Origin: an uncultured Anaerolineales bacterium
Lineage (GTDB): Bacteria; Chloroflexota; Anaerolineae; Aggregatilineales; Aggregatilineaceae
DNA length: 64,000 bases
Direction of reading: 5' to 3'
Assembly: GCA_937135955.1 (NCBI GenBank)
Contig: CAKZOB010000019.1
Location: 1-64,000 of the forward strand
Each line of letters begins with the position of its first letter. Position 1 is the stretch's first letter. The notes below the pieces were generated by a model. It was not told where the DNA came from and did not search any database. It saw only the letters and a program-made list of their open reading frames with translations. Made by a program: the position numbers and the translations under genes. Below, piece after piece: positions 57,767 to 64,000 of this stretch.

Positions 57767-59143
57767 TCAACAGCCGCCCGTCTCGCTGACGACAATGTAG
57801 CCCTGGATCATCTCGGCGACGATCTGCTCGCCGATAGTCGCGGTCACATTGACGTAGATGGTATGCAGACCCGGCAGCAGGCCGGTGGTGTCGGCGTAGA
57901 CCTGCACCGTGTCGCCGCTGGAAACGCGCGGAGGATATACTTCGAGCGCCGGCCCATCCGGCGGGCTGACCCCCTCTACCTGCGCGCTGAATGTCCCCGG
58001 ATAGCCGCTGTTGGCCACAACGAACTCGCCGACCAGCACTGAGCCAGGACAGGCTATATCCACCTCGGCAGTCATGTCGCGGGCGTAGAGGGTCAGGCGG
58101 GGCAGGTAATCGCTGATGCGGCGGGGCATGTTCGCCACGCGTTGGAAGACAGGCAGCGGCGATCCATCGCTGCGCAGCAGGCTGAACCAGCGCATATGAC
58201 TGCACAGCGGGGTGACATTCGGCGGGTAGAGCGCCCAGTTCAGGTTCCACAGGAACATCGGCCCGGCCCAGGGCCAGTGCCGGTCGGCCCAGTCGAAGGC
58301 GCGGACAGTGTAGTCGGCCTGGGTCTGCCCGGAGACGCGCAGCCAGGCGAATCCCGCGAAGTGCGGGTCGCTGTCGGAGCAGGTGACGCCATCCTCAGCC
58401 GGGTCGCGCAGCCAGCCGAATTCGGTCATCCAGATTTGCTTGTCGTAGATGCCGCGCTCTTCGAACAGGGCGCGGATCAACTCGACGCGGCGGAAATTGA
58501 GCGTATTGTAGTCCGGTTCGGCTTCGGGCGGCTGATTGTAGCCGTAGGGATGATAGCCGAAGGCGTCGAACCACTGCGCCGCGCCGTTGTCGAGCATTTC
58601 GGCGGCGTAGTCAATGTCGCTGATCGCGCCCCGGTCGGCGGTGGTGATGGTTGGGGCCAGCCCGCCCGACACGACGATGATCTGCGGAGCGACGGCTTTG
58701 ATCTGCGTGTAGGCCACGCGCAGCATCTGCGTGTATTCCCAGGCGTTGGGGCCGTGCGGCCATTCGACGGCCAGGTTCGGCTCGTTGTGTACTTCGATGG
58801 CGTCTACGCCCAGCGCGGCCAGCTCAGTAGCGCGCTGGCGTATGCTGACCCGGAAGGCTTCCCAGTTGGATGGCCAGGGTAGGTCCATGCGGAAGAGCAC
58901 GCGCTTGTTGCTGAAAGCCGCCACCTGCCCCACTTCGTACACCTTCACCCAGTCCATGCGCAACTGATCGACCAGGGCGGGGCTGGCCGTCGTGTGCGGG
59001 CCGACATGCACGCCATAGCCCAGATGTGGCGGGGGCAGGGGGTCGTCGCCTTGGGCGGCAGCGAAAGGCGAAGGGCGCAGGGGTGTCAGCAACACCGATG
59101 CGCCCAGCACCACTAGCGAGATGAAAGCGGTCATGCGTCGCAT
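57767..59143 (-). CDS. Secreted glycoside hydrolase (clan GH-A, GH39-like)
   Basis: About 458 residues. A signal peptide (MTAFISLVVLGASVLLTPL) precedes a TIM-barrel catalytic domain with the acid/base Glu in AIEVHNEPNLAVEW near residue 118 and the nucleophile Glu in IWMTEFGWLRDP near 243, the clan A arrangement. A C-terminal beta-sandwich (about 355-455) resembles an Ig/CARDB-like module. The first ATG at 59152 lies inside the TATAAT box and cannot be used if that promoter is real; ATG at 59143 or 59134 is preferred. Substrate and GH family number are not certain. Confidence 0.75.
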   Translation of the reverse strand: MRRMTAFISLVVLGASVLLTPLRPSPFAAAQGDDPLPPPHLGYGVHVGPHTTASPALVDQLRMDWVKVYEVGQVAAFSNKRVLFRMDLPWPSNWEAFRVSIRQRATELAALGVDAIEVHNEPNLAVEWPHGPNAWEYTQMLRVAYTQIKAVAPQIIVVSGGLAPTITTADRGAISDIDYAAEMLDNGAAQWFDAFGYHPYGYNQPPEAEPDYNTLNFRRVELIRALFEERGIYDKQIWMTEFGWLRDPAEDGVTCSDSDPHFAGFAWLRVSGQTQADYTVRAFDWADRHWPWAGPMFLWNLNWALYPPNVTPLCSHMRWFSLLRSDGSPLPVFQRVANMPRRISDYLPRLTLYARDMTAEVDIACPGSVLVGEFVVANSGYPGTFSAQVEGVSPPDGPALEVYPPRVSSGDTVQVYADTTGLLPGLHTIYVNVTATIGEQIVAEMIQGYIVVSETGGC

Positions 59144-59150
59144 GGCGGCC

Positions 59151-59181
59151 ATTATAGATCACAAAGGCGAGCACAGGACAA
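59151..59181 (-). promoter_or_regulatory. Promoter of the glycoside hydrolase gene, possibly leaderless
   Basis: Minus strand: TTGTCC (59176-59181), 19-base spacer, perfect TATAAT (59151-59156). Transcription would begin at about 59143-59145, at the second ATG, so the mRNA may have no leader. Confidence 0.5.
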
Positions 59182-59680: not shown

Positions 59681-60442
59681 ATGAAGCTGATGGTGGTGCT
59701 GCCGACCTATAACGAGGCAGAAAACCTGGAGACGATGGTCGAACGGCTGCTGGCGCTGGAATTGCCAGTGGAACTGTCTGTGCTGGTGGTGGACGACAAT
59801 TCGCCCGATGGCACGGGGCAGATCGCCGATGCGCTGGCCGCGCGCTATCCGGGGCGGGTGGAAGTGCTGCACCGCAAGGCCAAGCGCGGCCTGGGAACGG
59901 CCTACATCGAGGGCTTTCGCGTGGCCTTCGAGCGGGGCGCGGACTACATCCTGCAGATGGATTGTGACTTCTCACACGATCCCAAATATATCCCGGCCAT
60001 GGTAGCCGAGATGCAGACCTGTGGTTGCGATATTGTCGTCGGCTCGCGCTACACCAAAGGTGGCAGCGTAGACGAGACATGGGGGATCGGGCGTAAGCTG
60101 CTAAGCTGGTGGGCCAACAGCGTCTATGTCAACCTGATTCTGCGCACCGGCACCAAAGACGCGACTGGCGGCTTCCGGCTCTGGCGGGCCGAAGTGCTCA
60201 AGGGCATTGATCTGGATCGCATCCGGTCGAGCGGCTACGTGTTCCAGGTGGAGACGATCTACGTGGCCGAAAAACTGGGCTACCGTACTGCCGAAGTGCC
60301 CATCTACTTCGCCGACCGCAAGCGGGGCCGCTCCAAGATGAGCTTCAGGGTGCAGAGCGAAGCGGCGTTGCGCGTATGGCAGGTGTGGTGGCGTCACCGG
60401 CACCTGACGCCCAAAGACCGGCTACCGGTCTCTGCCTCGTGA
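59681..60442 (+). CDS. Polyprenol monophosphomannose synthase (DPM1-like GT2)
   Basis: A 253-residue cytoplasmic GT-A enzyme that transfers mannose (or another hexose) from a nucleotide donor to a polyprenyl phosphate. It has VVLPTYNEAENLETMV at the start, VVDDNSPDGTG near residue 36, KRGLGTAYIEGFRVAFERGAD near 67, QMDCDFSHDP (DxD-like) near 90, GSRYTKGGSV, and GYVFQVETIY with KRGRSKMS near the end. It lacks the C-terminal membrane domain of some relatives. The lipid-linked sugar could be used by membrane glycosyltransferases. The YfhO-flippase fusion gene follows after 24 bases. Confidence 0.9.
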   Translation: MKLMVVLPTYNEAENLETMVERLLALELPVELSVLVVDDNSPDGTGQIADALAARYPGRVEVLHRKAKRGLGTAYIEGFRVAFERGADYILQMDCDFSHDPKYIPAMVAEMQTCGCDIVVGSRYTKGGSVDETWGIGRKLLSWWANSVYVNLILRTGTKDATGGFRLWRAEVLKGIDLDRIRSSGYVFQVETIYVAEKLGYRTAEVPIYFADRKRGRSKMSFRVQSEAALRVWQVWWRHRHLTPKDRLPVSAS

Positions 60443-60466: not shown

Positions 60467-63400
60467 ATGACGATGCTGCGTAGAGTCCTCCCCGATGGGC
60501 TGATTGTGGCAGGGCTGTTGCTTCTGCCACTCTTGTTTTTCGCGCCGGTCACGCTGGGCGACCGCACACTGATCCCTGCCGACAACCTCTACCAGTACGA
60601 ACCCTGGCGCAGCGCCCGCGAGACCGTCGGCGTGCCGGAGATTCCCCACAACGCGCTACTTTCCGACCTGGTGCTGCAGAACTATCAGTGGAAGACGTTC
60701 CTGCGGCGCACCCTGTCCGAAGGTGTGATTCCCCTGTGGCAGCCCAATCAGTTCGCCGGAACGCCCTTCCTGGCGGCGGGGCAACACGGCGCGCTGTACC
60801 CCTTCAGCATCCTGTACTATGTCCTGCCCCTGCCGCGCGCCTACGGCTGGTTCACGGTGAGTCAACTCTGGCTGGCGGGCGCGCTGATGTACGCCTTTGC
60901 CCGTGGACTGCGCCTCAGTCGGGCGGCGGGCGCGGTGGCGGGCGTGGCCTATCAGTTCAGCGCGTTTTTCATCGTCAGCGCTGTGTTCCCCATGATGATC
61001 TCCGGCGCGGCCTGGTTGCCGTTGTTGCTGCTGATGATCGAATTCGTCATCGAGCAGCGACCGTTGCGCGGCGACCGTCCGGCGACCGTTCCCTGGATCG
61101 CGCTCGGCGCGCTGGCGTTGATGATGAATATCTTCGCCGGGCACGTGGAGATCACCTACTATACACTGATCGTCATGGCCTTCTACGCAGCGGCGCGCCT
61201 GCTGGGGCTGTGGTGGGGCGACCGCGCCGCCTGGCGACGGCTACTGCGCCCCGCTGGGGCGCTGTTGCTGATGGTCGCGCTGGGGATCGGGCTGGGCGCG
61301 GCACAGTTCCTGCCGCTGTACGAACTGGGCACGCGCAACTTCCGCGAGGCGGCGGCCAGTTTCGAGCAGGTGCGCGGCTACGCCTTTCCCGCGCGGCACG
61401 TCCTCAAGTTCCTGATGCCGAATGCCTATGGCAACCCGGCGCAGCACAGTTACCGCGATGTCTTCACCTGGGAGATGGTCGCGCAGGACTGGCAACGCCC
61501 CTGCGCAGAGTGCGCGAACGGCTTCGCCCGCGTGACCGATACGGATTTCGGCATCAAGAACTACGTAGAGGGCGGGGCGTATGTCGGCATCCTGACGCTG
61601 GTGCTGGCGGCGGTGGGCTTGCTGGCCCATGGTCACGCGACTGCCCAGGGAAATGCGGGCGCAGGGCGGGGGCGCACCCCTCAGCGCCTGATCCTGGGCG
61701 CGCTGGCGCTGGTCTCGCTGACCTTTGCCTTTGGCCTGCCGACCTACGCGCTGCTGTACTACGCTTTTCCCAACATCAATCAGTTGCATACGCCGTTCCG
61801 CTGGGTGTGGCCGTTCACCTTCTGCACGGCGGCGCTGGCGGGGTTCGGCGTGGACGCGCTGCAGCAGGCGACGGCAGAACGCCTCCGCTGGGTGAAGTGG
61901 CTGGGCGGCGGGCTGATCGCGCTCGGCGCGGCGATTGTCGGTGGCCTGCTGCTTTCCCGCGCTGCCTATGATACCGTCGCCCCACTTGTGGAGCGCCTGT
62001 ATACAGGGCTGGCGAAGGCCGATCAGGCGTTCCCCGACGCGCGGGCGTTCTACAGCTACGAATTTTGGAACGTTCTGTGGCTGGGGGTGTTCGTCGGCGC
62101 GGCGGGCGTCGTGGTATGGCTGAGCAGCAGCAAAGCGCGTCTGCCGCGACAGTTGGGCGGCGCTCCGCTGGGGGGCGCGCTGGCGGTGAGCGTCGTCGCG
62201 CTCGATCTGATGATCGCAGGTTGGGGCTTCAACCCGTCTGCTGATCCGGCCTGGCTGGACTACACGCCGGATGCGATCCGCTGGTTGCAGGAGCGGCAGG
62301 CGGAGGAAGGGCCGTTCCGCTACACCACGATCAATTTTGGCGAGAATCCGCTGCATGCCAACAGCACCTGGCGCTACGACCTGCACGACGCGCGCGGCTA
62401 CGACAGCATGATCCCGCGGCAGTACGCCCAGTATATGGCGCTGATCGCGCCGCAGGGCGGGTTACTGCACAACCGTATTGATCCCATTGCCTGGGACAAT
62501 GTGGAGGCGCTGGCTTCGCCGCTGCTGGATTTGCTCAACGTGCGCTACATGGTCACAGACTGGCTCGTTGCCGACGCTGAGGCGCTCGGTCTGCGCGAGG
62601 TCTACACCGATGCGGCGGTGCGCATTTACGAGAACATAGATGCCCTGCCGCGCGCCTACCTGCTGCCCTATTACGATCTCACCGAGCCGCTGTGCGGCGC
62701 TGCGCCCGACGACTTTGCCACGATCGTCCGCAGCCCGGATTTCGTCGCCGACCCGCGCCGCGTGGTGATCCAGGACTTCAGTGGCGCGGATTCGTGCGAC
62801 CTGGTCTATCACTGGCCGACACCAGCGCACGAAGCCGATCCAGTGCCCGCGAAGATCGTTTCCTACGGTGCTATCGAGGTGATAGTCGAAGCCGAGGTCA
62901 GCGCGGAGTCGTGGCTGGTGCTGGCCGACAGCTACTACCCCGGCTGGAAGGCATTCATCCGTCCGCAGGGGAGCGGCGAAGTTCAGGAGCAGGAGACGCC
63001 CCTTTACCTGGTCAACGGCAACTTCCGCGGGGTGCGCCTGTCCCCTGGTGTGTGGACGGTGCGCTTCCGCTACAGCCCGCCGAGCTTTCAGGTTGGTGCG
63101 TTCCTTTCTTTCCTCAGCGGGATGCTGATCATCTTCATGCTGATGCTGTGGCTGTGGCGGCGGGTCTATCGCGCCGAGGACGAAGCGGACAGCGCCCGGC
63201 GCATCGCCAAGAACAGCCTGGCCCCTATCGTGCTCAATCTGTTCAACCGCGCCATAGACTTCGCCTTCGCTTTCGTCATGCTGCGCATCCTGGGGCCGGC
63301 GAACGCGGGTATCTACTATTACGCCATCGTCATCTTCGGCTGGTTCGACATCCTCACCAACTTCGGCCTCAACACGCTATTGACGCGCGAAGTGGCCCGC

Positions 63401-64000
63401 GACCGGAGCGCAGCAGCGCGTTACCTGTTCAACAGCACGGCGTTGCGGCTGGCGCTGTCGGCGTTGGGAGTTCCGTTGTTGTTGGGCTTCCTGGCTGTCC
63501 GTCAGGCGACCGTCAGCCCTGCGCTGGAGGGGCAGGCCATTGCCGCGATCGTGCTGCTGTATCTTGGCCTGCTACCGAACAGCATCAGCACCGGCCTGAC
63601 GGCGCTGTTCTACGCCTTCGAGAAGGCCGAGTATCCGGCGGCGATCACGACGGTGAGCACCATTGTCAAGGTGACGCTGGGGCTGGGCACGTTGCTGCTC
63701 GGCTGGGGCGTGGTAGGGCTGGCCGGTGGCGCGGTGATCACTAATCTGGTCACGCTGACGGTGCTGGGCTGGCTGGCCCGTCCGCTGGCGGGTGGCGTCT
63801 TCGCCGAGCGGCTCGACCGTCCCCTGCTGCGGCAGATGGTCGGCGAAAGCTGGCCGCTGATGATCAATCATCTGCTGGCGACGGTCTTCTTCAAGATTGA
63901 CATCGTGCTGATGGAGGCGATCAACGGCAACACCGTCGTCGGGCAGTATTCGACAGCCTACAAGTGGCTCGACGCGCTGAACATTATCCCCGCCTTCCTC
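60467..64000 (+). CDS. YfhO-like membrane protein fused to a polysaccharide flippase (partial, runs off the window)
   Basis: One uninterrupted frame of at least 1178 codons; I read it through from 61082 to 63200 without a stop. Residues 1 to about 900 resemble YfhO-type multi-membrane proteins: GDRTLIPADNLYQYEPWR, IPLWQPNQFAGTPFLAAGQH, many helices, then the C-terminal hallmarks LNVRYMVTDW, ADSYYPGWKAF and VRFRYSPPSFQVGAFLSF. After RRVYRAEDEADSA a second protein begins near residue 908: RIAKNSLAPIVLNLFNRAID, FGLNTLLTREVARD, SWPLMINHLL, as in Wzx/MVF-type flippases. YfhO proteins are thought to be glycosyltransferase-like; flippases move lipid-linked glycans. The 3' end is outside the window. 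ATG at 60473 is an alternative start. Confidence 0.8.
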   Translation, partial: MTMLRRVLPDGLIVAGLLLLPLLFFAPVTLGDRTLIPADNLYQYEPWRSARETVGVPEIPHNALLSDLVLQNYQWKTFLRRTLSEGVIPLWQPNQFAGTPFLAAGQHGALYPFSILYYVLPLPRAYGWFTVSQLWLAGALMYAFARGLRLSRAAGAVAGVAYQFSAFFIVSAVFPMMISGAAWLPLLLLMIEFVIEQRPLRGDRPATVPWIALGALALMMNIFAGHVEITYYTLIVMAFYAAARLLGLWWGDRAAWRRLLRPAGALLLMVALGIGLGAAQFLPLYELGTRNFREAAASFEQVRGYAFPARHVLKFLMPNAYGNPAQHSYRDVFTWEMVAQDWQRPCAECANGFARVTDTDFGIKNYVEGGAYVGILTLVLAAVGLLAHGHATAQGNAGAGRGRTPQRLILGALALVSLTFAFGLPTYALLYYAFPNINQLHTPFRWVWPFTFCTAALAGFGVDALQQATAERLRWVKWLGGGLIALGAAIVGGLLLSRAAYDTVAPLVERLYTGLAKADQAFPDARAFYSYEFWNVLWLGVFVGAAGVVVWLSSSKARLPRQLGGAPLGGALAVSVVALDLMIAGWGFNPSADPAWLDYTPDAIRWLQERQAEEGPFRYTTINFGENPLHANSTWRYDLHDARGYDSMIPRQYAQYMALIAPQGGLLHNRIDPIAWDNVEALASPLLDLLNVRYMVTDWLVADAEALGLREVYTDAAVRIYENIDALPRAYLLPYYDLTEPLCGAAPDDFATIVRSPDFVADPRRVVIQDFSGADSCDLVYHWPTPAHEADPVPAKIVSYGAIEVIVEAEVSAESWLVLADSYYPGWKAFIRPQGSGEVQEQETPLYLVNGNFRGVRLSPGVWTVRFRYSPPSFQVGAFLSFLSGMLIIFMLMLWLWRRVYRAEDEADSARRIAKNSLAPIVLNLFNRAIDFAFAFVMLRILGPANAGIYYYAIVIFGWFDILTNFGLNTLLTREVARDRSAAARYLFNSTALRLALSALGVPLLLGFLAVRQATVSPALEGQAIAAIVLLYLGLLPNSISTGLTALFYAFEKAEYPAAITTVSTIVKVTLGLGTLLLGWGVVGLAGGAVITNLVTLTVLGWLARPLAGGVFAERLDRPLLRQMVGESWPLMINHLLATVFFKIDIVLMEAINGNTVVGQYSTAYKWLDALNIIPAFL

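Follow-up and report, generated by a model that had tools for sequence, protein, structure and literature searches.

An in-frame fusion of a YfhO-type glycosyltransferase with a Wzx/MurJ-type flippase, conserved in Chloroflexota

Does one polypeptide both carry a lipid-linked sugar across the membrane and use it, and if so, in which order? The question is raised by a gene at the end of the DNA stretch analysed here (the window; 64,000 nucleotides from an uncultured Anaerolineales bacterium, positions 1-64000 of the 103 kb contig C19 in a genome assembly of 4.28 Mb and 93 contigs). In this gene a YfhO-type glycosyltransferase (GT) of the GT-C class is joined in frame to a flippase of the Wzx/MurJ type, and a GT2 gene on the same strand ends 24 bases upstream (GT2 stop at 60442, fusion ATG at 60467), just as an earlier note made from the window's sequence had described. 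The analysis itself showed both domains and their folds, the parity of the topology, a fusion that is conserved and apparently arose once, and its linkage to GT2 at about half of the loci. We think it rather likely that the two genes encode an extracytoplasmic glycosylation system, a version of the multi-component CsbB/GtcA/YfhO type.

The fused gene and its two halves

Read from TTG 60458 or ATG 60467, the frame is uninterrupted up to the end of the window, and its extension along the same contig revealed a stop codon at C19:64681, which gives a protein of 1404 amino acids counted from the ATG. No stop or frameshift was found at the junction of the two halves (about residues 895-915), nor across 63100-63200, where, according to the earlier note, such a break would refute the fusion. 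Furthermore, when the window gene was compared with four relatives, the ratio of nonsynonymous to synonymous substitution rates (dN/dS) was 0.06-0.15 over residues 871-930 and 0.12-0.26 in the halves and the ectodomain; because the ratio is low across the junction, we conclude that the junction is selected as protein. The two genes and the parts of the fusion protein are located as follows.

59681..60442, + strand: GT2, a DPM1-type polyprenyl-phosphate sugar synthase with a GT-A fold, 253 amino acids (Pfam, solved relative)
60467..64000, + strand, continuing to C19:64681: fused YfhO-type GT-C transferase and Wzx/MurJ-type flippase, 1404 amino acids (open frame, Pfam, orthologues)
60467..62221, + strand: membrane domain of the GT-C half, covering residues 1-585 and predicted to have 13 transmembrane helices (family-averaged hydropathy, AlphaFold, Foldseek)
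Residues 31-111, + strand: first external loop of the GT-C domain (family-averaged hydropathy)
60581..60583, + strand: Asp39, just after transmembrane helix 1, always Asp or Glu (25 Asp and 8 Glu in 33 fusions; 49 Asp and 4 Glu in 53)
60665..60667, + strand: Asp67, an acidic position in the first external loop that never varies (33/33 and 53/53 fusions)
61142..61150, + strand: His226-Val-Glu228 (GHxE), invariant in the fusions and GHxQ in stand-alone YfhO paralogues (alignment)
62222..63079, + strand: ectodomain (residues 586-871), containing both helices and strands (AlphaFold secondary structure; external by helix count)
63080..63211, + strand: final helix of the GT-C half (872-900) and the positively charged linker (about 901-915) (hydropathy, dN/dS)
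63191..64000, + strand: MOP-superfamily flippase domain, residues 909-1404 with 14 predicted helices, of which residues 909-1178 fall inside the window (PF01943, AlphaFold, Foldseek)

The YfhO half occupies about residues 1-900. The YfhO profile PF09586 matches residues 61-297 with 65 bits against a cut-off of 28.5 (67 bits when the half is searched alone), and the hallmark motifs are present, including SYYPGWKAF within the ectodomain. An AlphaFold2 model of this half, built from the orthologue alignment, reached a predicted local distance difference test score (pLDDT) of 86.2 and a predicted template modelling score (pTM) of 0.88, and a Foldseek comparison with the PDB matched it to ArnT with undecaprenyl phosphate (5f15, E 4e-7) and to AftD (6w98, E 1.5e-6). 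As modelled, the N-terminal half is of the GT-C fold, and by analogy with the YfhO family its predicted activity is the transfer of a sugar from polyprenyl phosphate.

The flippase half is matched by Polysacc_synt (PF01943) over residues 914-1188 with 105 bits against a cut-off of 28.2, and the Polysacc_synt_3 and MurJ profiles of Pfam also score above their cut-offs. A model built for the orthologue at locus L021 (pLDDT 88.8, pTM 0.86) matched MurJ (6nc6, 3e-9) and WzxE (9g9p, 4e-9) in Foldseek, as well as MATE transporters. Profile and fold thus both place this half among the MOP flippases, as does its helix count (12-14 in such proteins, both ends inside). However, the NCBIfam equivalogs MurJ, SpoVB and Wzx_EPS scored far under their cut-offs (MurJ 38.5 against 235.6 bits), and the half therefore belongs to the MOP superfamily but to no named member of it. 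A sequence search of the PDB returned no solved relative for either half, PHROGs gave no match, and a plasmid search yielded a weak match to the flippase half in Haladaptatus and nothing more.

Family-averaged hydropathy gave an order of 13 helices up to residue 584, a soluble stretch of 291 residues, a helix at 876-894, a loop of 26 residues carrying 6 Lys or Arg, and then 14 helices. With the N-terminus inside, the GT-C loops of 96, 86 and 291 residues would lie outside and the linker between the halves would be cytoplasmic. This arrangement agrees with the topology described for YfhO proteins, which have 8-13 helices and, between the final two, a large loop outside the membrane (PMC5836110). 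For YfhO of B. subtilis 13 helices are predicted, with the large external loop in that position (PMC5836110); the GT-C half of the window protein has one helix more.

Across 53 fusions Asp67, His226, Glu228, Glu368, Gln439 and Arg445, among others, are invariant. His226, Arg445 and, in most of them, Glu368 are shared with the stand-alone YfhO paralogues, whereas the paralogues lack the PADN...PHN insert that the fusions carry in their first external loop. From its position, Asp67 is a candidate catalytic base. Conserved charged residues of the flippase half include Arg974, Asp1145 and Lys1166.

Conservation and origin of the fusion

The same uninterrupted gene, encoding 1310-1560 amino acids, was found in more than 60 Chloroflexota orthologues, which bears out the earlier suggestion that related fusions exist in this phylum. 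All of 41 genomes related from genus to order level matched some part of the query, most of them with continuous fusion open reading frames (ORFs) of about 1350-1500 amino acids, and a peptide-pattern scan of genome contigs yielded 44 loci, 32 with a complete continuous fusion ORF. An even sample of 400 Chloroflexota genomes gave 45 matches at E<=1e-60, which represent 39 genera from several classes and have ORFs that were nearly all 1310-1520 amino acids long. Among 34 phylum-wide members, a few of whose ORFs end at contig edges, PF01943 was detected in 34/34 and PF09586 in 31/34 at E<=0.001. Because the same continuous ORF recurs in the 32 orthologues of the scan and in the 34 phylum-wide ORFs, the fusion is neither a product of chance nor a misassembly; an assembly error or chimera at 63100-63250 was likewise rejected, since independent assemblies carry the same junction. 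All 44 loci of the scan, the only test made beyond the phylum and one that distant cases could escape, belong to Chloroflexota. Halves that are always separate genes in close relatives, the other refuting result named in the earlier note, were looked for and not seen, the exceptions to the intact fusion being L054, G028, G129 and G327.

Two of these exceptions are broken copies. At L054:6687-10820 the fusion gene is interrupted by one in-frame stop, which lies within the GT-C ectodomain and not at the junction, and G028 matches the query in three pieces, one of them with a TGA.

The YfhO halves of 53 fusions formed one clade (support 100) against 16 stand-alone paralogues, and the flippase halves of the same 53 also formed one clade (99), which additionally holds G129 and G327. 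In G129 (L093:4812-8686) a flippase of 525 amino acids lacks the YfhO half, is nested within the fusion clade, and starts with a helix and linker resembling those of the fusions; its gene and that of a PMT-type GT-C of 766 amino acids overlap by a few bases. The GT-C partner has apparently been swapped in this lineage, and because of the overlap we conclude that the pairing of flippase and GT-C was kept with another GT-C. The protein of G327 (L092:2930-5584; 884 amino acids) has an intact flippase and a GT-C half cut by an internal deletion, the remnant matching only residues 89-304 and 806-895. The simplest reading of these sequences would be a single fusion event that was later undone in the G129 and G327 lineages. 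Fission, and not a pre-fusion state, is the likely explanation for both, and this direction is likely rather than proven because the trees came from quick searches and were midpoint-rooted, with some long branches.

We also considered that the fusion might be merely genetic, with two proteins made in practice, either because translation starts internally or because the chain is cleaved at the junction. The solitary flippase of G129, with its similar helix and linker at the beginning, would be in keeping with this, as would the in-frame ATG, GTG or TTG found in the last GT-C helix of most orthologues. Against it, the positions of these codons vary among orthologues, separate neighbouring halves of the fusion type were not seen in relatives, and the junction is among the most constrained parts of the protein. 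Production as two proteins is therefore very improbable.

The GT2 gene and the order of flipping and transfer

The upstream gene, which the earlier note had called a polyprenol-phosphate mannosyltransferase, indeed encodes a GT2 of the DPM-synthase type: Glycos_transf_2 of Pfam matches it at 2e-31, and its closest solved relative is the dolichol monophosphate mannose synthase of P. furiosus (5mlz, E 2e-34), over the first 244 of its 374 residues. Unlike the P. furiosus enzyme, GT2 has no GtrA-like membrane domain. GT2 is the single homologue at E<=1e-20 in this genome, and because the genome has one such gene, its adjacency to the fusion is most unlikely to have arisen by chance. Among the 74 fusion loci with enough upstream sequence, GT2 lies immediately upstream and on the same strand in 30 (one of them L043) and within 1.3 kb in 6 more, in several classes. 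In these 30 loci, the present one included, a GT-A synthase, a flippase and a GT-C are encoded together.

In models of multi-component transmembrane glycosylation, a GT-A enzyme charges polyprenyl phosphate inside, a flippase follows, and a GT-C transfers the sugar outside (PMC5836110, PMC8035078); in such systems the Wzx-type flippase GacK has been proposed in place of GtrA (PMC8035078). Applied to this locus, GT2 would work on the inner side of the membrane and charge polyprenyl phosphate with a sugar, most likely mannose, the MOP flippase domain at the C-terminus would carry the polyprenyl-phosphate-sugar to the outer face, and the N-terminal YfhO-type GT-C domain would move the sugar from the lipid to a surface acceptor outside, perhaps one held by the ectodomain. 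The fusion would thereby tie donor supply to donor use. We place flipping before transfer because the gene pair supplies all three parts of the established models. A more specific version, in which one chain exports polyprenyl-phosphate-mannose and passes it straight on to the GT-C active site that it also carries, a physical coupling that would have arisen a single time in Chloroflexota and been retained in several classes, is a serious possibility that we put forward tentatively.

The earlier note had assumed the opposite order, in which the sugar is added to the acceptor at the inner face and the product is then flipped outward. MprF, a lysyl-phosphatidylglycerol synthase/flippase and the best-known enzyme-flippase fusion, follows such an order, with the synthase acting inside and the flippase afterwards (PMC8131360). 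However, the synthase of MprF is cytosolic, whereas the helix count here puts the large GT-C loops and the ectodomain all outside; moreover, the best structural matches, ArnT and AftD, act outside, and YfhO-type GT-Cs use an already flipped donor there (PMC5836110, PMC8035078). The flippase more likely delivers the donor, and transfer before flipping is extremely improbable.

The flippase domain might also work in the other direction, returning spent polyprenyl phosphate inward after transfer instead of bringing the charged donor outward, and its fusion to the very transferase that releases the spent carrier would fit such a role. Recycling of the carrier, however, is assigned to the DedA and DUF368 families, whereas export is what MOP flippases do; the scheme would also still need a donor flippase, and none is encoded beside these genes. 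We regard inward recycling as improbable.

Alternatively, the flippase half could be an ordinary Wzx for a lipid-pyrophosphate oligosaccharide unit, the GT-C half decorating the flipped unit with a donor brought across by another protein, for example the GtrA of this genome. The nearest flippase models are PF01943 and WzxE/MurJ, and the flippase has been retained in G327 beside a reduced GT-C half, both of which would suit an ordinary Wzx. The genome does have a separate GtrA gene, its only one (G000:C60:62265-62705, locus L097), though this lies away from the fusion, in a polysaccharide cluster between a Wzy_C ligase and a GT4. No polysaccharide cluster was found around the fusion locus, the fusion being flanked neither by Wzy or an initiating transferase nor by any other glycan gene, and the recurrent neighbour is instead a polyprenyl-phosphate monosaccharide synthase. 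We consider the role of an ordinary Wzx unlikely, though not negligibly so.

Several observations weigh against the two-gene glycosylation system that we prefer. The cargoes for which the MOP superfamily is best known are lipid II and pyrophosphate-linked oligosaccharides rather than phosphate-linked single sugars. In the window protein, external loop 1 does not contain the strict DXD motif of GT-Cs; the stand-alone YfhO paralogues are also without it in the same aligned stretch. GT2 is not next to the fusion in the remaining 38 loci with enough upstream sequence, and 26 of 28 genomes without adjacency (a count including G327 and G129, which are not full fusions) have a homologue elsewhere. 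A homologue is also present in 20/20 fusion-negative genomes tested, so GT2 is not dedicated to the fusion protein, and the idea that it is an exclusive partner was rejected. Lastly, because the GT-C half of G327 has been reduced by the internal deletion, the flippase there may have a role of its own.

In some genomes where GT2 is not beside the fusion, it adjoins other GT-Cs, namely PMT_2 in L149, L154 and L156 and GT87 in L152. The shared theme across loci is GT2 plus a GT-C.

Described systems and neighbouring genes

A literature search of open-licence papers found no paper that deals with YfhO in Chloroflexi or describes a fusion of a GT-C with a Wzx protein, in agreement with the earlier note, which knew of no described enzyme with this architecture. 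The CsbB/GtcA/YfhO systems of B. subtilis, S. aureus and Listeria likewise have a polyprenyl-phosphate-sugar synthase gene beside a YfhO-type GT-C, and this GT-C has the same topology, its large external loop preceding the final helix; however, their flippase is a separate small GtrA-type protein, whereas here a MOP/Wzx-type flippase is fused to the GT-C and the GT2 is soluble, DPM1-like and without a membrane domain. In the GacI/GacJ/GacK/GacL system of Streptococcus pyogenes a Wzx-type flippase, GacK, is similarly proposed to supply the GT-C GacL (PMC8035078), but the two are separate proteins and GacL is listed as PMT-2, not YfhO. MprF resembles the fusion in uniting an enzyme and a lipid flippase in a single polypeptide, by analogy only: the domains are unrelated, the MprF enzyme is cytosolic and acts before flipping, and the GT-C here is predicted to be external and to act after it. 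Neither the MprF flippase fold nor a GNAT-type synthase was found in the fusion protein, the Pfam and fold matches being to other families. ArnT and AftD share the fold of the N-terminal half and use polyprenyl-phosphate sugar donors, but they are without a flippase domain and only 12-14% identical to the GT-C half, and MurJ and WzxE resemble the C-terminal half in fold and in the number of helices, but are stand-alone proteins with pyrophosphate-linked cargo.

Thus, both families and the three-part system are known, and what appears to be new, judging from the open-licence papers searched, is the covalent joining of a YfhO-type GT-C to a MOP flippase and its maintenance across Chloroflexota classes, although domain databases may already list such an architecture. 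Flippases for polyprenyl-phosphate-linked single sugars are largely unproven, and the conserved fusion links flipping and transfer genetically, fixes them in a one-to-one ratio, and means that the assignment of the flippase can be tested in one protein. It also provides a first candidate surface-glycosylation module for Chloroflexota, and joining the two halves probably lets a sugar carried across the membrane be used at once outside the cell.

The remaining neighbours at the locus are genes for PdxS/PdxT, rhomboid, TPR, M23 peptidase, GNAT, GH1 and GDPD proteins, and a protein of 461 amino acids encoded at 57767-59152 on the - strand had no Pfam match at 1e-5. Downstream of the fusion, a gap of 771 bases is followed by an asparaginyl-type tRNA synthetase gene (C19:65453 onward; L065:6454-7788). 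A synthetase of this type (443-474 amino acids) follows the fusion in about ten fetched loci, perhaps as plain synteny.

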